Assembly: GCA_030651375.1 (NCBI GenBank)
Contig: JAUSFM010000011.1
Span: forward strand, 1-64,000
Reading direction: 5' to 3'
Origin: Candidatus Woesearchaeota archaeon
GTDB lineage: Archaea; Nanobdellota; Nanobdellia; Woesearchaeales; UBA12501
Length of the DNA stretch: 64,000 nucleotides
The position numbers and the translations under genes are program-made. Below are positions 8,370-21,573 of this stretch, one piece after another. A model generated the notes under the pieces. That model did no database searches, was not told where the DNA came from, and saw nothing but the letters and a program-made list of their open reading frames with translations. Position 1 is the stretch's first letter, and the number at the start of each line of letters is the position of its first letter.

Positions 8370-9260
8370 CTATGCCTCGTTTTTCCGCACGTCGGTTTCT
8401 TTTGACTCGCCGAGAATGCCGGTGGGCTTGAAGATAAGCATGATAATGAGTATAAGGAATGAGATTGCAGGTTTGTAGCCAGACGGGATGAACCAAATAC
8501 CAATATTTTCTGCAAGGCCAATAACAAAGGCGCCAAGCACGGCGCCATGAATGTTCCCAATACCGCCGACAACCGCTGCACTAAATGCGGCAATGCCCAA
8601 CGCCACACCCATCGTCGGCTGAATCGTTTGCTCGACGCCGATAAGCACACCGGCAAGCGCTGCCAGTGCAGAGCCAAGCGCGAAGGTGAACATGATAACT
8701 CTATCAACATTGATGCCGAGGGTTAATGCAAGTGAAAGGTTGTCGGTTACTGCCCGCATTGCCTTGCCCATTTTTGTGTATTTCAGGAAGAGGAAAAGAA
8801 ATGCCAAGACAATGGCGGTGGTGACGATGATAACGAGTTGATGGTTCGTGACCATTGCGCCGAGAATTTCACGGCCCACCGTCACATTGCCGGTGCGCAG
8901 TGTTCGAATGTCACCACCCCAGATGATAAGCGCAACGCTCTGCAGCAGCAATGACATCGCCACTGCCGTAACAAGCGGCGCAATTTTCCCGGAAAACCGC
9001 AGCGGACGATATGCAACGCGCTCGATGATGATTCCCAGCAATGCTGCAAGTGCCATGGCAATAACCGCTGCCATCCATAACGGAAGCGCAAAGACGTGCA
9101 CACCCGTGTACGCAAAATACGCACCCATCATCAAAATTTCTCCGTGTGCGAAATTAATGAATTTCAGAATGCCGTACACCATCGTATAGCCAAGTGCCAC
9201 GAGCGCATAAATAGCTCCTGCAATGATGCCGTTCGCAATGAGCTGGGCGAGGAGAGACAT
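8370..9260 (-). CDS. livH: branched-chain amino acid ABC transporter permease LivH
   Basis: This 296-residue permease opens with the LivH hallmark GAIYALVALGYTMVYGI and contains FAHGEILMMGAY and ERVAYRPLR. It is first of livHMGF. It has its own TATA box at 9281-9292, separate from livK, which lies about 730 bases further upstream on the same strand with unrelated plus-strand genes between. LivH and LivM together form the membrane channel. Confidence 0.95.
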   Translation of the reverse strand: MSLLAQLIANGIIAGAIYALVALGYTMVYGILKFINFAHGEILMMGAYFAYTGVHVFALPLWMAAVIAMALAALLGIIIERVAYRPLRFSGKIAPLVTAVAMSLLLQSVALIIWGGDIRTLRTGNVTVGREILGAMVTNHQLVIIVTTAIVLAFLFLFLKYTKMGKAMRAVTDNLSLALTLGINVDRVIMFTFALGSALAALAGVLIGVEQTIQPTMGVALGIAAFSAAVVGGIGNIHGAVLGAFVIGLAENIGIWFIPSGYKPAISFLILIIMLIFKPTGILGESKETDVRKNEA

Positions 9261-9278
9261 GAATACGTTGGTTTAGAA

Positions 9279-9294
9279 GCCGGTTTAAATAGTT
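9279..9294 (-). promoter_or_regulatory. livHMGF promoter TATA box
   Basis: The minus strand reads AACTATTTAAACC here, about 20-30 bases before the livH ATG at 9260. This archaeal BRE/TATA-like element shows that the permease-ATPase genes can be transcribed independently of livK. Confidence 0.6.
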
Positions 9295-9382
9295 TTTGAA
9301 GGAGATTAAGTTTGAGATGATCCTTGAAAAACAGAAATGAACTGTCAAAAGATTTATATAACTCCTGAATATTTTCGGTTGG

Positions 9383-9652
9383 ATGAGTAATAAAGAAAAA
9401 ACAAAAATGAGTTTATGGAGTAAGATATGGAAGAGTCTAGCTGCTCTAGCCATAGTGTATGGTTTACTTAGTATAACTGGATTGACCATAAAATTTGACC
9501 TATGGATATTTGTGTTGGTAGCAGTAATATTCTTTGCAGTCTATTGGCATTTACTTGAGCAATTAAAGGATAAAATTGATTTTATCAAAAAATATTTTTT
9601 AGAACTTCAAAAAGACATAAAATATATAAAAACAAAGATAGATAACAAGTGA
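9383..9652 (+). CDS. small two-helix membrane protein, unknown
   Basis: The 89-residue protein has a short basic start, two hydrophobic segments (about residues 18-34 and 38-55) and a charged, probably helical lysine-rich tail. I recognise no family. A strong TATA box (GATTTATATAAC, about 9350-9361) lies about 25 bases before the ATG, so the mRNA should be nearly leaderless. Codon use is AT-rich compared with the liv genes on both sides, and the strand is opposite to them. With the next two tiny genes it forms a small island inside the liv locus, possibly acquired. Confidence 0.65.
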   Translation: MSNKEKTKMSLWSKIWKSLAALAIVYGLLSITGLTIKFDLWIFVLVAVIFFAVYWHLLEQLKDKIDFIKKYFLELQKDIKYIKTKIDNK

Positions 9653-9657
9653 TTATA

Positions 9658-9777
9658 ATGACCTTATCCAAAAAAGCAAAATTAAATCTTGTAGCTAATT
9701 TGAAAGAGATAATTCTAGCTGCTTTACTGTTGTACATACTGTGGGCAATTATAAAGACACTTTATCTTGGTGGATAG
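9658..9777 (+). CDS. 39-residue single-helix membrane peptide, unknown
   Basis: The frame begins MTLSKKAKLNLVANLKEII, then has a hydrophobic helix (ILAALLLYILWAIIKTLYL) and stops. It starts five bases after the previous gene ends, so co-translation is likely. It is AT-rich like its neighbours. Lack of homology and short length make this a moderate call; spacing and membrane character support it. Confidence 0.45.
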   Translation: MTLSKKAKLNLVANLKEIILAALLLYILWAIIKTLYLGG

Positions 9778-9814
9778 AAAAACTGATCAGTATATCCTCA
9801 AAAGGTGATGAGCA

Positions 9815-9943
9815 ATGCAGATACCAATAGAACTAATAACATTTCTGATTACAATAATAGTTGGAGGATATCTGATACTCAAAGTAAGATCTATATTAAA
9901 ACGGAAGATAGCAGAATATGTGAAGCAAAAGTACCAGAGATAG
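9815..9943 (+). CDS. 42-residue single-helix membrane peptide, unknown
   Basis: It begins MQIPIELITFLITIIVGGYL with one hydrophobic segment, then a basic amphipathic tail (VRSILKRKIAEYVKQKYQR). A good ribosome-binding site, AAAGGTGATG (9801-9810), lies just before the ATG. It is third in a row of tiny membrane-protein genes between livH and livK. The design resembles small membrane peptides such as type I toxins or phage-derived proteins, but nothing in the sequence decides this. Confidence 0.45.
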   Translation: MQIPIELITFLITIIVGGYLILKVRSILKRKIAEYVKQKYQR

Positions 9944-9988
9944 AAACAATGCTCAGAAGAGAAAGAAAATAAAAAAATAATTAAAAGT

Positions 9989-11101
9989 TTATTCCTGCTT
10001 CACAAATTTGCCATCCTTAACGACGAAGAGGTCGTAGGATTTTTCTACTTCACCGAATTCATCGAATTCAAAGGTCCCTGATACGCCGTTGTATTCGCCC
10101 ATCTGGTTGAGGTAGTCTTTGATGGCTGATCCTGTGCAGTCGGTCTTGGCGCAGGCATTCAGCAGAATCATCGTTGCGTCCCATGTTTCAGGGTTGTACG
10201 CTGATGAATCCTTGTTGTATTTTGCCTTGAATTTTTCATTCAGCGCCGTGAGTTCTGCAGATTCAGGAACCGCAGGCAGCGTCACGGTAAATCCTTCAGC
10301 CGCGTCGCCCGCATTCGTGAGCACGGTGTCGTCTTTGGACGCATCCGCACCAACGAGTGTTGCCGTAATGCCAAGTTCTTTAATCTGCTTGAGCACAATG
10401 GGCGCTTCGGCAGGGAACAGAGGCATATAGATTGCGTCGGGATTGAACTCTTTTATTTTGGTCAGCTGGGTACGTACATCGTTACTGCCCGGCTCAAGAG
10501 ACTCAACCGTTACATCAAGGCCAAGCTTTTTTGCTTCGTTAACAAAGACACCGCTGATGCCAACGCCCCAGTCGTCATTTCTAAACAAGACACCAACTTT
10601 TTTGGCGCCTGATCCCTTGACTAATGCAGCTGCCTTTTTCCCTTGGCCAGCGTCAGAAGGCACGACACGGAAGACATAGTCTCCTGCATCTTTTATTTTC
10701 GGGCTTGTCGCACCGTAGGAAAGCATAACAACCTGTGCCGGCTCTGCAATCGGCGCAGTGGCGAGCAATGCAGACGAGCACAGCGTTCCAATTATTGCGG
10801 ATACTTTGTCCTGATCAATCAATTTCTGCGCAACAGTCGTCGCGGTTTTTCCTTCACAGCGGTCGTCTTCAAAAACAATGTCTATTTTCTTGTCGCTGTT
10901 TGCATTGAATTCCTCCAATGCCAGTTCTGCTGTTTCTCGGTTCGGAACACCGATGGACGCGGCATCACCGGTCTGCGGGCCCATGAAGCCGAGCTTGTAA
11001 TTTTGCGTGGTGACTTCACTGCGTTTCTGCACTGTGCATCCTGTGAGCAGGAGCAGCAGGGCAACAGAAACAATCATCAGAAAAGAATGTTGTTTGTTCA
11101 T
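9989..11101 (-). CDS. livK: branched-chain amino acid ABC transporter substrate-binding lipoprotein LivK
   Basis: This 370-residue protein has a signal peptide ending in the lipobox LLTGC (Cys22), so it should be membrane-anchored. It then has the periplasmic-binding type 1 fold with KLGFMGPQTGDAASIG near the start, typical of the HAAT receptor family. It delivers amino acids to LivHMGF encoded further downstream. It has its own TATA box (TCTTTATAAATCC, about 11147-11159) and is separated from livHMGF by the small plus-strand genes at 9383-9943. Confidence 0.93.
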   Translation of the reverse strand: MNKQHSFLMIVSVALLLLLTGCTVQKRSEVTTQNYKLGFMGPQTGDAASIGVPNRETAELALEEFNANSDKKIDIVFEDDRCEGKTATTVAQKLIDQDKVSAIIGTLCSSALLATAPIAEPAQVVMLSYGATSPKIKDAGDYVFRVVPSDAGQGKKAAALVKGSGAKKVGVLFRNDDWGVGISGVFVNEAKKLGLDVTVESLEPGSNDVRTQLTKIKEFNPDAIYMPLFPAEAPIVLKQIKELGITATLVGADASKDDTVLTNAGDAAEGFTVTLPAVPESAELTALNEKFKAKYNKDSSAYNPETWDATMILLNACAKTDCTGSAIKDYLNQMGEYNGVSGTFEFDEFGEVEKSYDLFVVKDGKFVKQE

Positions 11102-11150
11102 TGTTCAAACCCCCCATGTTGATTAATGAGGGAATAAAGTAATGCTGGAT

Positions 11151-11543
11151 TTATAAAGATTGTTGTGAAACGATTGATTGGCACTCCTCACAAATGCCCG
11201 TAACTTCAATCTGAAAATGGCAAATGCTTCCTTTGAGTTTGTTTTGCAGAAAACCAATATCCTTCACGGCAAAGTGAGAGGTGGCGCCGCATTTTTCACA
11301 GATAAAGTGGCAGTGGCTGGTAAAGGTAGTTGAGTAGATTATTTTTCCATTGCATGAAAACGAGCACAGTGTGCTGGCGGCCTGTGACTCTTTCAAAAAA
11401 CGGTACACAGTTGCTATGCCGATATCGGCATCCCTGCGGTGTGCCTTTTTGAATAAGTCAGGGGCAGTGAAAAAAGCATGCGTACCGCTGACCAGCGTCG
11501 TGAGCAGCTGTTTCTGTTTTGTTTTCCGCGAGATTCTGCCCAT
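11151..11543 (-). CDS. Fur-family metal-dependent regulator (probable Zur/Fur)
   Basis: This 130-residue protein has an N-terminal winged helix with IGIATVYRFLKES, the Fur-family recognition helix, and a C-terminal dimerisation part with two CxxC pairs (CEKC and CEEC) that bind structural zinc, plus HCHF metal-site histidines. It is divergent from a ZIP transporter with a short shared intergenic region carrying an inverted repeat. Control of zinc or another divalent metal is the simplest reading; Fur, Zur or PerR cannot be told apart here. Confidence 0.9.
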   Translation of the reverse strand: MGRISRKTKQKQLLTTLVSGTHAFFTAPDLFKKAHRRDADIGIATVYRFLKESQAASTLCSFSCNGKIIYSTTFTSHCHFICEKCGATSHFAVKDIGFLQNKLKGSICHFQIEVTGICEECQSIVSQQSL

Positions 11544-11549
11544 TATTGA

Positions 11550-11564
11550 TACTGAATATCAGTA
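11550..11564. promoter_or_regulatory. inverted-repeat operator between Fur-family gene and ZIP gene
   Basis: TACTGA-ATA-TCAGTA is a perfect 6-bp inverted repeat with a 3-base spacer. It begins seven bases from the regulator start and sits just before the ZIP TATA-like element (AATATTTAAAAATAT, 11564-11578). A Fur-family dimer bound here could repress both genes (inference). Confidence 0.6.
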
Positions 11565-11597
11565 ATATTTAAAAATATCGGTTTCTTACGAGTAGGT

Positions 11598-12350
11598 ATG
11601 GCATCCATCTGGGTATACACGATCATCAGCGTTCTGGTAGTCAGCCTTATTTCCCTCGTCGGGTTGATAACACTGGCGATTACATCCAACCGGCTCAAAA
11701 AAGTGCTTATTTACCTCGTCAGCTTTGCTGCGGGCGCCTTGTTCGGAGACGCGTTCCTCCATCTCCTTCCGGAAGCTGTGGAACATGCAGGGGGCCTCAC
11801 CGTGCAGTTGTCGCTGTATGTACTCGGCGGCATTGGACTTATGTTTGTTGTTGAGAAGGTTATCCGCTGGCGACACTGCCACATCCACATGGAAACCGCG
11901 CATCACCACCCGTTCGCGCTCATGAACCTGTATGGAGATGCGGTGCATAATTTTATCGACGGCCTCATCATCGGCGCGAGCTACCTTGCCAGCATCCCGG
12001 TGGGGATTACCACCACCATCGCCGTCATTCTCCACGAAATTCCGCAAGAGCTCGGCGATTTTGGCGTGCTGCTCCACGGCGGATTTTCCAAAATGAAAGC
12101 GTTATTTTTTAATCTCCTCACTGCGCTCACTGCAGTTCTGGGCGCAATAATTGCGCTCTTGTTGAGCGGATCAGCAGAGAATCTCACCGCGTTTTTCATT
12201 CCGTTTGCTGCAGGCGTGTTTATTTACATCGCCGGCTCTGACCTGATTCCAGAACTGCATAAGGATGCCGGAGCAAAAGAATCGCTGCTGCAATTCTGCG
12301 CGTTTGCCGTGGGTATTGGCTTCATGGCACTGATGCTGTTGATGGAGTAG
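11598..12350 (+). CDS. ZIP-family divalent metal transporter
   Basis: This 250-residue membrane protein has eight likely helices. Helix IV carries HNFIDGLIIG and helix V HEIPQELGDF, the binuclear metal-binding motifs of ZIP transporters. A histidine-rich loop (HCHIHMETAHHH) lies between helices III and IV. It probably imports zinc, iron or manganese into the cytoplasm. The divergent Fur-family gene and shared dyad suggest metal-dependent repression. Confidence 0.93.
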   Translation: MASIWVYTIISVLVVSLISLVGLITLAITSNRLKKVLIYLVSFAAGALFGDAFLHLLPEAVEHAGGLTVQLSLYVLGGIGLMFVVEKVIRWRHCHIHMETAHHHPFALMNLYGDAVHNFIDGLIIGASYLASIPVGITTTIAVILHEIPQELGDFGVLLHGGFSKMKALFFNLLTALTAVLGAIIALLLSGSAENLTAFFIPFAAGVFIYIAGSDLIPELHKDAGAKESLLQFCAFAVGIGFMALMLLME

Positions 12351-14277: not shown

Positions 14278-14291
<14 letters not shown>

Positions 14292-14880
14292 GCAAATAAG
14301 CACTGGCATCTGCAATAGGCGTACCGCGCTCTAATTGGCGTGCACGTATCTCTCTTTCTGAAGCAAGGGCAAGCATGGTGCCCGGTTTTTTTAATTCTGT
14401 GCGGAGATACTGTTCATATTCCGGAACAAAACGAACTTCAAATATTTCACCCAAACGATTAGTTGCATGGATAGCAACACCTTCGCGAATAGTAGTATAA
14501 TGGTCACAAATTCGCTGCACGCGCTCAACCTGAAGAGCGTCGTCTGAAAAATCAGGCAGACCATAGCAGGTTAATTCTTCACGAAGTTCACGAACAGGTG
14601 ATGTTTCTCTTTCCTCACCACGTCTGTACCAGTCTTTAAATGCATGAAAATTTTCTGGAGGAAGATACAAACGAAGGTCGTTTGTTTCTGGCTTTTCAAA
14701 CTCTGCGTCAATGCTTTTTAAGAACGGGCGCGCAGACTCATGAAATTCCAATGCGCCGCCCAGCGGCGCAAATTCGAGTATGCCTTGAATTCGACGTGAG
14801 CTTGTCAGGTCAAGAAGCAATCTGCCATCAAGGCCAATGCGGCTCCATGCCACGGCACACACGCGAACGAGATCGGACAT
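14278..14880 (-). CDS. NUDIX-like protein, unknown substrate
   Basis: This 200-residue protein contains [32 protein letters not shown] and other NUDIX-like pieces. The RELREEL part fits the metal-binding half of a NUDIX box, but the full box is not canonical. The arrangement resembles the SMODS-associated NUDIX group of defence-linked proteins; this is a tentative family guess. The start at 14880 (MSDLVRVC) is preceded by a TATA box (GGTTTAAATACC) about 25 bases upstream; the longer frame to 14958 runs into the msrB-like fragment. The gene lies between msrB and a copy of the msrB 3' end, which suggests it arrived by insertion. Confidence 0.55.
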
Positions 14881-14929
14881 ACGGAGAAGCAAATAGCCGA
14901 CGGTATTTAAACCTTTCTTTATAAAGAAG

Positions 14930-14995
14930 CCGAAACAGACAGAGAAACGATACCGCATTAATTCGGGGGCGCTGGAGTTTGAAGAGAAGAATTAA
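14930..14995 (+). pseudogene. msrB 3'-end fragment (duplicate)
   Basis: The plus strand reads [19 protein letters not shown] then KN and a stop, matching the MsrB C terminus [19 protein letters not shown] at the same codon phase (14220-14291). The catalytic cysteine is replaced by arginine and everything upstream of the last 21 codons is missing, so it cannot be functional. It bounds the far side of the 14278-14880 gene. It could be a scar from insertion into msrB that restored the gene end, or a remnant of a second msrB. Confidence 0.8.
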
Positions 14996-15366
14996 TACGG
15001 CATTCGCACGTGTAGTTTTGGAACCACCTGAAAATGTTTTATATTTTTTGTCAGAAGTTCAGCATCATAAACAAGTGCTGTCGCGGCGATTAATGCATCA
15101 GGAAGAGCGAGGCCATAATCTCGAGACAAATCACCTCCAAGAACCGCAATAGGATTAGTAACCATTATCTTTTCCCAGCGGTGTAGAAAATGGAGCGTGA
15201 ATTCTTTTTTTCGTGCATCGGCACACTCTTTCCCGGCAATAAGCTCGGCTTCAGTAATTGCAGAAAAGATAACATCATCAGCGTCAGCAATGGATTCAAA
15301 AAAACGGATGGCAGGAGCATGCTTTCTTAAATGATCGATAAAAATGTTGGTATCAAGGAGCATCAT
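14992..15366 (-). CDS. vapC: PIN-domain toxin, VapC family
   Basis: This 124-residue protein has the PIN-domain acidic residues in LLDTNIFIDH near the start, a glutamate in ITEAELIAG, and LPDALIAATAL with aspartates near the end. These residues chelate the metal for RNA cleavage in VapC toxins. It overlaps the upstream antitoxin gene by an ATGA junction, the standard order antitoxin then toxin. Its target RNA cannot be read from the sequence. Confidence 0.9.
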   Translation of the reverse strand: MMLLDTNIFIDHLRKHAPAIRFFESIADADDVIFSAITEAELIAGKECADARKKEFTLHFLHRWEKIMVTNPIAVLGGDLSRDYGLALPDALIAATALVYDAELLTKNIKHFQVVPKLHVRMPY

Positions 15367-15614
15367 TGAAACTCACGTTTTCTTCGGGGCTCCCATGTTT
15401 TTCTCATCCGGTTTTCATATTCAACACCCGTTTCTTTTGTAGTGGTCCATAAACCTGCGGCAGCGTTAATAACGTCTTTGTTCAGTTTGAGGATATCAAC
15501 GCGGTCACCTTCTATTGCAAAGATGACACTGCCTCCTTCTTCGAGGCCTTTGAGTTCTCGTACATCCTTTGGGATGGTGACCTGCCAGTTCCGAGTTATT
15601 TTCGCAATGCCCAT
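15363..15614 (-). CDS. vapB: AbrB/MazE-type antitoxin, VapB family
   Basis: This 83-residue protein has an N-terminal swapped-hairpin AbrB domain (ITRNWQVTIPKDVRELKGL then GGSVIFAIEGDRVDI) that binds DNA as a dimer, and a C-terminal tail that would block the VapC active site. The stop overlaps the vapC start (ATGA). A TATA box (CTTTATATAGTA, about 15640-15651) lies upstream on the minus strand. Autoregulation by the VapBC complex is expected from the family. Confidence 0.9.
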   Translation of the reverse strand: MGIAKITRNWQVTIPKDVRELKGLEEGGSVIFAIEGDRVDILKLNKDVINAAAGLWTTTKETGVEYENRMRKTWEPRRKREFQ

Positions 15615-15793: not shown

Positions 15794-16864
15794 ATGAGAA
15801 TAACCGTCCCAACTCTTGCACTGATTTTTGGATTTATAGCACCGCGTACTTCAGCTTCTGCACCACCCCCACAACACTTGGCTGATGCTGATTCTGCTGT
15901 CTTTGCTATGAATCTTGTTACTTCTTGCCGAGAAAATGGATTGAGTGCAGACCAATGCTATGACCTATCGCGGGACCAACACAACGAATGCTCAACAAAT
16001 TATAATTGTGTGAATCTGGTAAAAGAGCTTGCTCCCCATTGGCTGCCTCTTGCCACTACCAATCACGCAGCGCCAAGTGCTCCAGCGGTTCCTGCAAATG
16101 TCCTACCGATAACTCCTCCACCCACCCAACCTGCTGAAATTTCCCATCATACTCTTCCACTTCAATCAATAGATTCTGATCCTTATCAGTCTCTTCGGTT
16201 TGAGTCAACACCAACCAACGCAGTACTTACCGTAACAAAATTAACCTACAGTGACGCAAAAGCCAAATTTGACAGCAATGAATCCTACATATTTCAAGAT
16301 GGGGCTGGTAAAAGCGCACCAGATAATAATCCTGATATTATTGACGGAACAAAGGACGGTATGAATCTTGGAATAAATGGTGAAAGTACCCCGATTAGTC
16401 TTGAATTCGGAAATGAGTACCGCGCTCTTCGTGATGAAGTTGTTCAAAAATATTCTGACCAATTAAGAGAAGTTATGATAGGCCAACGTGAGGGAACATT
16501 TAACGTGTATAGGGTAAATACCATTCAGGAATTACCGACAGAGGCACAAAAAACCTTAACTGAAGTCATCAAACAAAACATGTCACCCTTTGACAAAAAA
16601 ACCAATCGCACATGGACTATTGTACTAGCGCAAGATAGCCGAGGCATAGAATATATTGCTGCCGGTTCAGAAGAAAAAGACATAACGAAGTGGTTCTATG
16701 CACACAACGAGGGATACGTCACTGATGGAGAACAAGTCAACCTGCTCAATCCAGCGGATTCCACTCAAGAAATGATAAAAAATCTTGTAACGCTCGCCGT
16801 TGAAATGGATAACCTACGACAGCGCCAAGACCAACAGACGCTGCATGTTAATTCAGGATTATAA
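15794..16864 (+). CDS. secreted protein, unknown
   Basis: The 356-residue protein starts with a likely Sec signal peptide (MRITVPTLALIFGFIAP, cleavage probably near residues 22-26). It has a short segment with four cysteines (about residues 44-71), a proline-rich linker (about residues 90-115) and a 240-residue globular part with no motif I recognise. A strong TATA box (GGTTTATATACC, about 15761-15772) lies about 25 bases before the ATG. Four cysteines in a short exported segment suggest disulfides. I cannot assign a function. Confidence 0.75.
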   Translation: MRITVPTLALIFGFIAPRTSASAPPPQHLADADSAVFAMNLVTSCRENGLSADQCYDLSRDQHNECSTNYNCVNLVKELAPHWLPLATTNHAAPSAPAVPANVLPITPPPTQPAEISHHTLPLQSIDSDPYQSLRFESTPTNAVLTVTKLTYSDAKAKFDSNESYIFQDGAGKSAPDNNPDIIDGTKDGMNLGINGESTPISLEFGNEYRALRDEVVQKYSDQLREVMIGQREGTFNVYRVNTIQELPTEAQKTLTEVIKQNMSPFDKKTNRTWTIVLAQDSRGIEYIAAGSEEKDITKWFYAHNEGYVTDGEQVNLLNPADSTQEMIKNLVTLAVEMDNLRQRQDQQTLHVNSGL

Positions 16865-16938: not shown

Positions 16939-19260
16939 TTATGCGTCACAAAAGATACATCTGCTCATAACTCCAGTTCGAAAAAATAATAGCTTCCCAG
17001 ATCTCAAACAGTTTTTGCAGACGCTTTTATTACAACTTTGACATTTTACAATTTCTTTTTTACAGATTTCATTTTTACACCCGGGGCAAGTGCGCATATC
17101 TTCTTCACAAACATACTTAGCACATACATGACATTTGACTAAATGTGATTTACATGCCCTCTTTTGACAGATTACACATGAATAACCATGATCTACACAA
17201 TTTAGTTTAGCACAAGAATAACAAACGTACACATCCTTTTTTATTTTTTTAAAGCAAGTAGAACAATTCCCAAGTTCGTTTATTCCTAACCAATCGTAGT
17301 TGATTCTTAATTTTTTAGAATTTTTTTCTGCGTGCAGATTAAACTCAACTGTTGAAACTGGAGCAAAAAGATATTGAACGTCACATATAGAAAACATTTC
17401 TTTTTCGGGTTTTATTTCAAAAGAAGTAAGTAGTTTCTCTGATTTGTTCATATAATCGGTTTCAATTTTTTTAATGTATCTATCTTTTTCTAATTCTACC
17501 TGTTCCAATAATTTTTTTTGAAATTTTAGAGTTGAGTCAAGTCTGTCAATCTTATTTTGTTTTGAAAGTGATTTATTATCCTCAGACACAATCATCGCGA
17601 AGGCGACTTTCTGTTTCCTTAATTGTTGCAATTGTTTTTCTGCTAATCCTCCAGTGAGATTTTTAAAAGCTTCGGTTTCTAATGAAAGTCTTTCTTTAGT
17701 TTCTTCAATTTTTAATGCTAATCTTTCTTTTTTATTATGAAATTTATTCAACTTATCTTCCATCTTTTCATTTATTTCAGTTTGTAAAGAATCAAATATA
17801 TTTTTTAGAACTTCTTTTTTGTTTTTTGAATAAAAATGTGTTGTTTGATGATAGAAATATTGCCCTATTATTTCCCCCATGCTATCGTTAAGTCCTTTTG
17901 AAAAAACTGTTTTTGAATCAAGAGTGAGTTCGGCTTTAGGACCATCAATTTCTTTAGTTTCTCCAACAAATTTAATATTTTCGAAAAAGACAACATCTTT
18001 ATCTAAACGACAAACATATGTTTTTTTAAAATTAATTTCCGGAATATCTTGATGAACATATACGGTTTTAAATAAAAGAAACGGAATAAAATCAATTTTT
18101 TTCGATACTAAGTCATATTTAATATCTTTAATATTGAGTATTAATTCACCAAGAATGTGATTGTGATTGAATCGTTCTGTTAATTCACGAAAAACAGGTT
18201 CTTGTTTTTTTTCTAATTTTTGTTCTTTGAGATTAGAGAAATATGTCATCATTATTTTGTCAAAACGATTTTCTTTTGATGAGCTTATAAGCATTTCAAG
18301 TTGTTTTAATTCACTCAGATCACTTTCTTTACATCTTAATTTTTTAGCGATAAAGTTTCTGTCTAATGGATTTGGAAGGTTGAAAGATATGGTTGTTGCT
18401 ATGTTAGCAAGTATTTCTCGGCTGAAATCAGCGGGGGTTTGAGACGATATTATAACAGACAGTTTATATTTTCTCGCTTCCCTAAGAAGTGTGTCAACCG
18501 GTGAACCTTTGTAAGCTAGTCGATGTGATTCGTCAAGCACTATACAAAGTGGAGTTTCAGAACCTCCTTGTTTATAGAAAAAGTGCCAAAGACCATACAA
18601 GATAAATTCAGCAACCGTGATTCTTACCTCTTCTGAAAAAAGATTTTTAAGTTGAAAGGAAATTCGTTTATCGGTATAGTCTTCAAATTTTATTTTTTTA
18701 GTTCCAGAAAAAGAAGGATTATTGAATAGAGGATGTAACCTATCAAAAACTGATATTGCCCTGGTTTTTTCTTCTGTCGTTTTTGTATCAGTTTCATATT
18801 TTTTAAGAATTTTTTCAACATCTCTAAAAGTTGGGGCATTTTTATTCCATGTTTTTTTATCGTTATTTTTTATGCCTTTTGATTGATAACTTTCTTCTAT
18901 TGCCCGCATTATTAATCTTCTTTGCCTTACGCCCAAAAGATAGATATTGTCTATTATCTCCGTTATTCGTTCGCTCTGCTCAATTGGACCTATTCCCATA
19001 AGGTCTAATGGATTGATAAAATAATCCCCCATAAAATCAATTTTTTCAGCAACATCTCCATATTCATTGTGAAAATCTAGTATTATAAGCGGAACGTTAG
19101 AATTTTTCAATGAAAATAAAATTGTTTTTATACAAGAAGTTTTACCTGATCCACTTTGACCAACGATTAACAAATGTTGATTAATTTCTTGAGAAGGATC
19201 CCAGTAATAATCTGTTTTTTTCTTTTTTCCCAAATATATTTTCATTTTAGCAGGACCCAC
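16939..19260 (-). CDS. HerA/VirB4-like ATPase with coiled coil and cysteine-rich zinc-binding array
   Basis: The protein is about 773 residues. Residues about 28-330 are a HerA/DUF87-type ATPase: Walker A GQSGSGKTS (34-42), IILDFHNEYGD, Walker B LCIVLDESHRL and SVIISSQTPADFS. Residues about 480-620 are strongly charged and likely coiled coil. The last 110 residues hold about ten CxxC-type pairs repeating every 18-20 residues (CVICQKRACKSH, CHVCAKYVCEED, CPGCKNEICKKE, CQSCNKSVCKNC), which suggests serial zinc-binding modules. HerA-like ATPases move DNA in repair, conjugation or defence. It is visibly AT-richer than its neighbours, which suggests transfer. The start is GTG at 19260 or ATG at 19245. 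Confidence 0.8.
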   Translation of the reverse strand: MGPAKMKIYLGKKKKTDYYWDPSQEINQHLLIVGQSGSGKTSCIKTILFSLKNSNVPLIILDFHNEYGDVAEKIDFMGDYFINPLDLMGIGPIEQSERITEIIDNIYLLGVRQRRLIMRAIEESYQSKGIKNNDKKTWNKNAPTFRDVEKILKKYETDTKTTEEKTRAISVFDRLHPLFNNPSFSGTKKIKFEDYTDKRISFQLKNLFSEEVRITVAEFILYGLWHFFYKQGGSETPLCIVLDESHRLAYKGSPVDTLLREARKYKLSVIISSQTPADFSREILANIATTISFNLPNPLDRNFIAKKLRCKESDLSELKQLEMLISSSKENRFDKIMMTYFSNLKEQKLEKKQEPVFRELTERFNHNHILGELILNIKDIKYDLVSKKIDFIPFLLFKTVYVHQDIPEINFKKTYVCRLDKDVVFFENIKFVGETKEIDGPKAELTLDSKTVFSKGLNDSMGEIIGQYFYHQTTHFYSKNKKEVLKNIFDSLQTEINEKMEDKLNKFHNKKERLALKIEETKERLSLETEAFKNLTGGLAEKQLQQLRKQKVAFAMIVSEDNKSLSKQNKIDRLDSTLKFQKKLLEQVELEKDRYIKKIETDYMNKSEKLLTSFEIKPEKEMFSICDVQYLFAPVSTVEFNLHAEKNSKKLRINYDWLGINELGNCSTCFKKIKKDVYVCYSCAKLNCVDHGYSCVICQKRACKSHLVKCHVCAKYVCEEDMRTCPGCKNEICKKEIVKCQSCNKSVCKNCLRSGKLLFFRTGVMSRCIFCDA

Positions 19261-19364
19261 TTATTCATAAGGAAGATAGCGTTTAAATACAATAAACCCC
19301 TATTTAAACCTTTCTTCAGAACAGCGCTCCCGCTCCTCAGTCAATAAAATAGAAAATAAAAAAA

Positions 19365-20322: not shown

Positions 20323-20743
20323 CATTCTGTTGCTTCACTCCGAAGAGTTACTGACCACCCATTGGATGGCGCGCGCCCATTTCTGAACGCGTCCGTACAT
20401 CGCTGCACGGGTCGGACTATATCTTACAACCTTTTTGCGCTGCGCGCAAAAAGTTTGCGAACGGAATGACTCCTCGCTTCGCTCGGAGTCATTTGCCTCG
20501 CGCTTTCGCGCTCGGCGTTGGCAAACTTGATTGTTCTGGCATATAGTCTCTGAGGATTCTTCTCGATGAGAAGTCTTTCCTGCTGATTATCTCTCCGTGT
20601 TGGATTTTCAGAAATTTGTTTTGTCGCCAAAACAAACGACTACCAACATTTTATCGAGACGTTCCAGCATATAGCCAAATTTGTATCCCACGTTTTTCTT
20701 TGACGCTTCTGTTTAACACACGGGGCTTAAGGCAACATAATTC
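20323..20743 (-). other. group I intron in 23S rRNA, after U1931 (E. coli numbering)
   Basis: The 421-base insert splits CTTAAGGT and AGCGTAATACCTTGCC, which are continuous in other archaeal 23S genes. The upstream exon end CTTAAGGT (20744-20751) pairs over eight positions with GCCTTAAG inside the intron (20726-20733), giving P1 with the required U-G at the splice site. P7 is a perfect seven-pair helix between GACTATA (R element, near 20539-20552) and TATAGTC in the S-like AAGATATAGTCC (near 20414-20427). The last intron base is G. There is no LAGLIDADG or other endonuclease frame. GC-rich hairpins fill 20431-20525. Confidence 0.93.
20431..20453 (-). repeat. 10-pair palindromic hairpin inside the intron
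   Basis: CTTTTTGCGC and GCGCAAAAAG pair perfectly around a tgc loop. It is the same design as the hairpins next to tRNA genes at 5-21 and 33819-33841. It probably forms part of the peripheral P8 region between the two P7 strands of the intron (inference). Confidence 0.6.
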
Positions 20744-21573
20744 ACCTTAAGAGAGTTATAGTTACTCCCGCCGTTTACCCGATCTTAGCTCCGTTGGAAC
20801 AGAGTTTGAATTACGGGCACTGGGCAGACGTCACCAACTGTACACACCCTTACGGGCTAGCAGTTAGTTGTGTTTTTGTTAAACAGTCGGACCAACCTTG
20901 ATATTGCACCCTGCAATCGCAGACATACATCCACAACCGCAGGGACCCCTTATGCCGAAGGCACGGGGCTAATATGCCGAGTTCCCTTAACCCAATTATT
21001 GCCCTGACACCTTAGGTTTCTTACCGAGGGGCACCTGTGCTGGTTCTTGGTACGATTATCGGCGATTTTTCATTGTTCCCTTTTCACGGATTCCAGGCGT
21101 TGGCTGAATACTGCATACGCAATACCATTCGAGGATTTCATCACCTTCTCGCCATAACGGCACTCCAATGAGGTATTCCTCTTAGCACAACAGACAAGTC
21201 GTGTCAGCTTAGCCCAAAATGTCAGAAACAAAGCTTGTGTTGCCACACATACGCCGATAGTACAGGAATATTAACCTGTTGCCCTTTCCCGAGACTCGAA
21301 TGACGAGGTCGGTTAGGATCAACTTACCCTTGGCTGAACTGCATTGCCAAGGAACCCTTGCCCTTTCGGTGGCGGTGATTCTCACACCGCTCGGATCTTA
21401 CTTTCACCAGGATTCTCATCACTGCACGGTCCACACCCCCTCACGGAGATGCTTCTGCCCGAACAGAGAACCTACCTATCACACTCCTTGCGGAGGCCTA
21501 CAGTATCGGTAACTGGATTAGCCCCGTCCATCTTTGGGACCCATGATCTTGACAAGTAAGCTGTTACGCACTT

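Follow-up and report, generated by a model that had tools for sequence, protein, structure and literature searches.

A HerA/FtsK-type ATPase joined to a coiled coil and a cysteine array in an archaeal genome: a possible motor swap on a BrxHII/RapA-type domain

What is a DNA motor with a row of cysteines at its far end doing behind the ribosomal RNA operon of an archaeon? The question is raised by a gene in the window (the whole stretch of DNA analysed here, 64,000 nucleotides), whose reading frame is single and uninterrupted and starts 129 bp beyond the 3' end of the 23S rRNA gene, on the same strand (Table 1). The original prediction placed a HerA-like ATPase, a long coiled coil and a cysteine array in one protein, and this is borne out by the ORF itself, by a Pfam match of the N-terminal half to the DUF87/HerA-type ATPase (1e-14) and by the helices of an AF2 model. 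A GTG further upstream, at 19260, would lengthen the ORF to 16939-19260 (minus strand) and the protein to 773 aa; the ATG is the more likely start. The promoter element ahead of the gene is a 90% match to one at 14904-14924, which precedes another gene of the window. The rRNA of the window is archaeal, and the host genome (1.30 Mb, completeness rating 100%) falls in a class whose named genomes are Nanoarchaeota and Pacearchaeota MAGs. The 23S rRNA gene holds a group I intron (20393-20753, minus strand; Rfam RF00028, 53.8 bits, barely above the gathering score). On the other side lie a gene for a protein of 356 aa whose N-terminus resembles a signal peptide and which belongs to no Pfam family (15794-16864, plus strand; its GC is second lowest among the window's long ORFs), a pair formed by a MazE/AbrB-like antitoxin and a PIN-domain toxin (14992-15614, minus strand), and a gene with a SMODS-associated NUDIX domain (14278-14958, minus strand; PF18167, 2e-16). 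The last domain is tied to CBASS-type immunity.

Table 1. Features of the gene and of its product, in window positions
Feature	Residues	Positions	Strand	Basis
Whole gene	768 aa from ATG	16939..19245	(-)	ORF list and translation
Archaeal BRE/TATA-like promoter element GAAAGGTTTAAATA		19301..19321	(-)	Sequence
HerA/FtsK-type ATPase domain	1-345	18211..19245	(-)	Pfam DUF87, PADLOC and PDB matches
Walker A, GQSGSGKT	29-36	19138..19161	(-)	Kept in five-member alignment
Walker B, LCIVLDE	233-239	18529..18549	(-)	DE kept in alignment
LLREARKYK...SSQ	253-269	18439..18489	(-)	Invariant in alignment
Putative beta part, BrxHII/RapA-type C-terminal domain	356-455	17881..18180	(-)	Aligned to stand-alone tail proteins
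Coiled-coil hairpin	473-609	17419..17829	(-)	AF2 helices 142-224 and 229-278 of module model, pLDDT about 70
Two strands preceding the array, ending in NYD.L	630-651	17293..17358	(-)	AF2 strands; profile match
Cysteine array, 20 Cys	661-766	16948..17265	(-)	15-residue units C-x2-C-x4-C-x2-[H/D/E/C]-x3

Next to the rRNA operon the gene stands out by its composition, as had been pointed out originally: its GC content is 29.8%, against 47.7 +/- 3.9% in 34 long ORFs of the window, and its GC3 is 20.8%, against 51 +/- 8%. The family defined by its C-terminal half (the tail family, see below) is absent from the nine other genomes of the host's family, an absence limited by the incompleteness of these relatives, and in two relatives unrelated genes follow the 23S rRNA. 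Foreign composition and absence from relatives point to horizontal acquisition, in agreement with the initial suspicion. A search for flanking repeats that would mark an insertion site returned only AT-rich chance pairs and the shared promoter motif.

The motor half begins at residue 1, with no HAS barrel in front of it, and its DUF87-like domain possesses all the motifs of the HerA/FtsK superfamily (Walker A, Walker B, sensor glutamine and arginine finger). Going by the roles given to these residues in descriptions of the family (PMC10853773), R255 and R258 are candidates for the arginine finger(s) and Q269 for the sensor glutamine. The best PADLOC match is DndH (4.7e-36), followed by Mad8 (9.9e-28, residues 2-326), and the best solved-structure relative is DptH (PDB 7es4, 3e-11). 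The ATPase looks intact, and it is closest to Mad8 and the DndH/DptH ATPase domain. In four genomes of the same order we found ATPases 32-35% identical to it, whose tail is a short coiled coil that lacks the array. A profile made from the window protein and these four relatives (five sequences) has as its next relatives the ATPase domain of a Priestia DptH (1.3e-43), encoded by the gene after dptF and dptG, and also reaches single-domain ATPases on cyanobacterial plasmids. Around the archaeal relatives lie a type I restriction R subunit, an AlbA-type gene, ORF6N and an integrase. No cysteine array was found in the HerA-like bacterial-type ATPases examined for one (L104-L113). The closeness to DndH, DptH and Mad8 and the restriction, plasmid and integrase genes around relatives of both halves of the protein lend support to the defence or plasmid function first proposed, the function itself being unproven.

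The window protein was not assigned to DndFGH, HerA-NurA or MADS. The best-scoring family is the C-terminal HerA/FtsK ATPase of DndH/DptH, from DndFGH, but in DndH an N-terminal multidomain core precedes the ATPase (PMC10853773), and the window protein lacks any such domain. Membership in DndFGH or in phosphorothioation was rejected on this ground and also because no dptF- or dptG-like gene lies in the neighbourhood and DndC (TIGR03183) has no match anywhere in the host genome. DndC is often decoupled from DndFGH. The HerA proteins of the HerA-NurA and HerA-DUF4297/SIR2 complexes belong to the same superfamily and match the window ATPase more weakly; HerA-NurA was discarded for want of the barrel and of any NurA, SIR2 or DUF4297 neighbour. 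Mad8 of MADS is a HerA-like ATPase of single-domain size whose model (314 positions) has no tail, and nothing MADS-like was seen among the neighbours, which were read as translations and some of which were searched by Pfam. The HerA/FtsK capture systems (PMC10853773) and the HerA-centred BREX-related systems (PMC12839542) likewise place a DndH-type HerA domain in a new architecture, but they carry nuclease, Orc/Cdc6, winged-helix or BREX parts, whereas the window protein has a coiled-coil and putative zinc-array tail alone. As originally reported, no nuclease partner adjoins the gene, by Pfam or in the translations of its neighbours. Mrr too is absent from the host genome; given that the host has neither Mrr nor DndC, an effector, if there is one, would have to be something else or work in trans.

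Behind the ATPase, the quality of the AF2 module model (mean pLDDT 55) is poor except in the array. The model is unreliable between the ATPase and the coiled coil, is not confident at residues 356-455, where similarity taken alone is not significant, and predicts a coiled coil with helices of about 80 and 50 residues. The array comprises 8 CxxC pairs, the successive starts of which are spaced by 14, 15, 15, 15, 15, 8 and 20 residues; the original prediction of about ten pairs repeating every 18-20 residues needs correction on both counts, the actual period being 15. The tail holds five full units C-x2-C-x4-C-x2-[CHDE]. Among 20,000 shuffled versions of it the average was 0.13 and not one had as many as 5, whereas 87 of the 20,000 had at least 8 CxxC pairs. 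Structure prediction, proposed at the outset as a check on the array, gives a regular beta-turn-beta in each unit, with pLDDT 75-91 across most of it. We infer that the array binds zinc. Its likeness to RING, FYVE and LIM domains is weak and not significant, and since Foldseek comparison of two models with the PDB gave a best E of 0.4, we give no fold name to the array or to the middle domain.

Searches with the C-terminal half led to stand-alone tail proteins without an ATPase. Among 371 sampled genomes of the phylum, 21 (the host counted, one match marginal) were positive with a tail-family HMM, and 18 of these belong to one family within the host's class. In most tail-positive genomes the tail gene adjoins the gene of an SNF2 helicase of about 600 aa from the DrmD/BrxHII group, usually directly downstream of it. 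The survey of homologue neighbourhoods for recurring partners, also suggested from the start, thus yielded one, and what emerged was an array family consistently found with SNF2 instead of a common DUF87 family whose zinc ribbons are ordinary and whose context varies. A UvrD-like helicase near a shorter version of the tail, in one genus, was rejected as a partner, as it lies nearby but not in the same operon. In one nanoarchaeon, the SNF2 and tail genes come after an HsdM-like DNA methyltransferase gene (L090, 125-7335).

The family extends to haloarchaea. On three of their plasmids the gene order is SNF2, array protein, restriction endonuclease, and the two endonucleases checked are both Mrr-type; the arrays there are made of 25-33 strict units and 115-150 cysteines. 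Two of the long-array genes, with 15-residue units, are at 8401-11688 of L050 and at about 8457-12190 (plus strand) of L048; the Haloferax array gene is unannotated, and three short ORFs are listed on the opposite strand. On other haloarchaeal and bacterial plasmids, SNF2 is followed by a partner of 346-397 aa with few cysteines, related to the tail family (HHalign probability 98). Residues 13-372 of one protein (P0004, L049) match the viral phrog_36169 (function unknown) across nearly the full length, which suggests that haloarchaeal viruses may carry an array-free tail; the tail alignment found no match in viral contigs or phage records.

No Pfam, NCBIfam or PADLOC model and no solved structure matches the tail family. 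Its HMM aligns collinearly with the C-terminus (residues 700-950) of a haloarchaeal BREX-5 helicase (E 1e-5, about 4500 sequences), and when a stand-alone tail protein was modelled with AF2 (mean pLDDT 83), its elements came in the order published for BrxHII and RapA, with the array after them. BrxHII and RapA have a common C-terminal architecture (PMC12839542), and in the BrxHII/DrmD/RapA group of SNF2 helicases this part consists of a sheet into which a long coiled coil is inserted, and it is related to the stand-alone tail family. Because of the BREX-5 match and the shared order of elements, we read the stand-alone tail as a putative split-off C-terminal part of a BrxHII/RapA-type helicase to which an array has been added. 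As no PDB entry matches it by sequence or fold, its link to RapA is drawn from the order of elements and from the BREX match.

Does the window tail belong to this family? When the window protein is left out of the HMM, the model still picks up its C-terminal half with 38 bits (E 2e-10), and no shuffle or unrelated neighbour protein came near that score. The bulk of the signal is the cysteine array; without it, the window tail has no significant similarity to the family. Ahead of the array, a collinear profile match of borderline score (residues 625-654), about equal to the best of 25 shuffles, falls on the family's pre-array strand. As cysteine repeats easily become similar by chance and the non-array part is at noise level, one could see in the protein a DUF87 ATPase of the ordinary sort, followed by a coiled coil and by a zinc-ribbon tail that is unrelated to the SNF2-partner family and resembles it by convergence; a close ATPase relative (G083) does have one zinc ribbon behind its coiled coil. 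We consider this quite unlikely. The window tail and the family share the 15-residue unit, the order of ligands and that of the elements (strands, coiled coil, NYD.L strand, first CxxC); the weak match lands exactly on the corresponding strand, and shuffled versions of the complete tail, matched in composition, give no score at all. For the part not covered by the array, homology to the family would be a matter of collinearity and not of significant scores.

No SNF2 gene was found in the whole host genome (control genomes were positive in 14 of 14 cases), so the window tail has no SNF2 partner in trans and the HerA motor seems to replace the SNF2 motor here. The fact that such a tail is in other microbes normally the separate partner of a different DNA motor suggests motor swapping. 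Compared with BrxHII, DrmD and RapA, the window protein has a motor of the HerA and not the SNF2 type, the inactive-REase-like domain is gone and the cysteine array is added. The reading we favour, with a probability of roughly 45%, is that of an acquired DNA translocase that arose by a motor swap, a HerA ATPase of the DndH/DptH/Mad8 branch having replaced SNF2 on a BrxHII/RapA-type C-terminal domain. It is weakened by the noise-level similarity of the non-array tail, by the poor model and by the lack of a nuclease, Mrr or DndC within reach. The fusion of a DndH-type ATPase to the tail occurs in a single genome, with one analogous case: among 353 genomes of the order, one further ATPase-tail fusion was found (G462; L102, 9686-12262, minus strand), an 858-aa protein whose HerA-like ATPase is of another kind, with an IDPKGD motif, and is joined to a coiled coil and a short array of cysteines; here, too, the evidence outside the array is weak. 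On at least two occasions, it seems, a HerA-type motor became fused to a tail of this kind. In the same 353 genomes, one (G438) has an SNF2-linked tail gene.

The kinship with RapA raises a different prospect, in which RNA polymerase or chromatin would be the docking site of the tail and HerA would replace SNF2 in a housekeeping task such as polymerase recycling or roadblock removal. In Pacearchaeota-like genomes, SNF2 and tail do often recur in an ordinary chromosomal setting with non-defence neighbours; in several genomes they are preceded by a permease gene and followed by a prolyl-tRNA synthetase-like gene. These conserved surroundings, together with the C-terminal architecture common to RapA and BrxHII, allow for a transcription-related role. 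However, the window gene has a foreign composition and is missing in relatives, its ATPase belongs to the branch found in restriction systems, and the haloarchaeal copies adjoin restriction endonucleases on plasmids, all of which makes a housekeeping function unlikely in our estimate. Equally improbable is that the protein is the DNA pump of a mobile element (for plasmid transfer, segregation or virus packaging), left over from an integration by the rRNA operon. HerA-like ATPases are common in archaeal dark-matter islands, where they are possible viral pumps (PMC4158269); the very low GC, the single-domain relatives on cyanobacterial plasmids and weak matches to PHROG packaging ATPases would fit. 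Yet the locus has no integrase, capsid, relaxase or attachment repeat, phage and viral collections hold no close relative (one match, 25% identical), and the tail family is tied to SNF2 helicases and not to packaging genes. Single-protein scans of genome contigs and viral contigs gave no match.

If the motor swap did occur, the HerA/FtsK-type ATPase would now sit where SNF2 once did, on the beta/coiled-coil domain from a RapA/BrxHII-type helicase, a domain that in archaea would carry a linear array of zinc knuckles. One could then envision the ATPase forming a ring that encircles double-stranded DNA and pumps it at the expense of ATP. The coiled-coil arms would stick out from the ring with the zinc arrays at their tips, and these might hold on to nucleic acid or to a partner, be it a polymerase, a nuclease or a protein of the invader, movement then serving to load, strip or deliver foreign DNA to effectors supplied in trans. 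Given the ATPase branch, the neighbours of the relatives and the endonuclease cassettes, the most likely function would be that of a counter-invader or mobile-element DNA translocase.

It is tempting to speculate further, although we hold this broader proposal to be doubtful, that modular anti-invader machines share one zinc-array coiled-coil adaptor and interchange their motors, SNF2 in trans and DndH-type HerA or another HerA-like ATPase in cis, and that the length of the array, which goes from a few units to over 30, adjusts the recognition of a target that could be nucleic acid or protein. The findings link two literatures, those on HerA/FtsK capture systems and on RapA/BREX-type SNF2 helicases, via one adaptor family that has no database model and yet turns up repeatedly in Pacearchaeota-like archaea and, on haloarchaeal plasmids, next to restriction endonucleases. 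Should the motor swap prove true, it would be the adaptor, not the motor, that sets the target.
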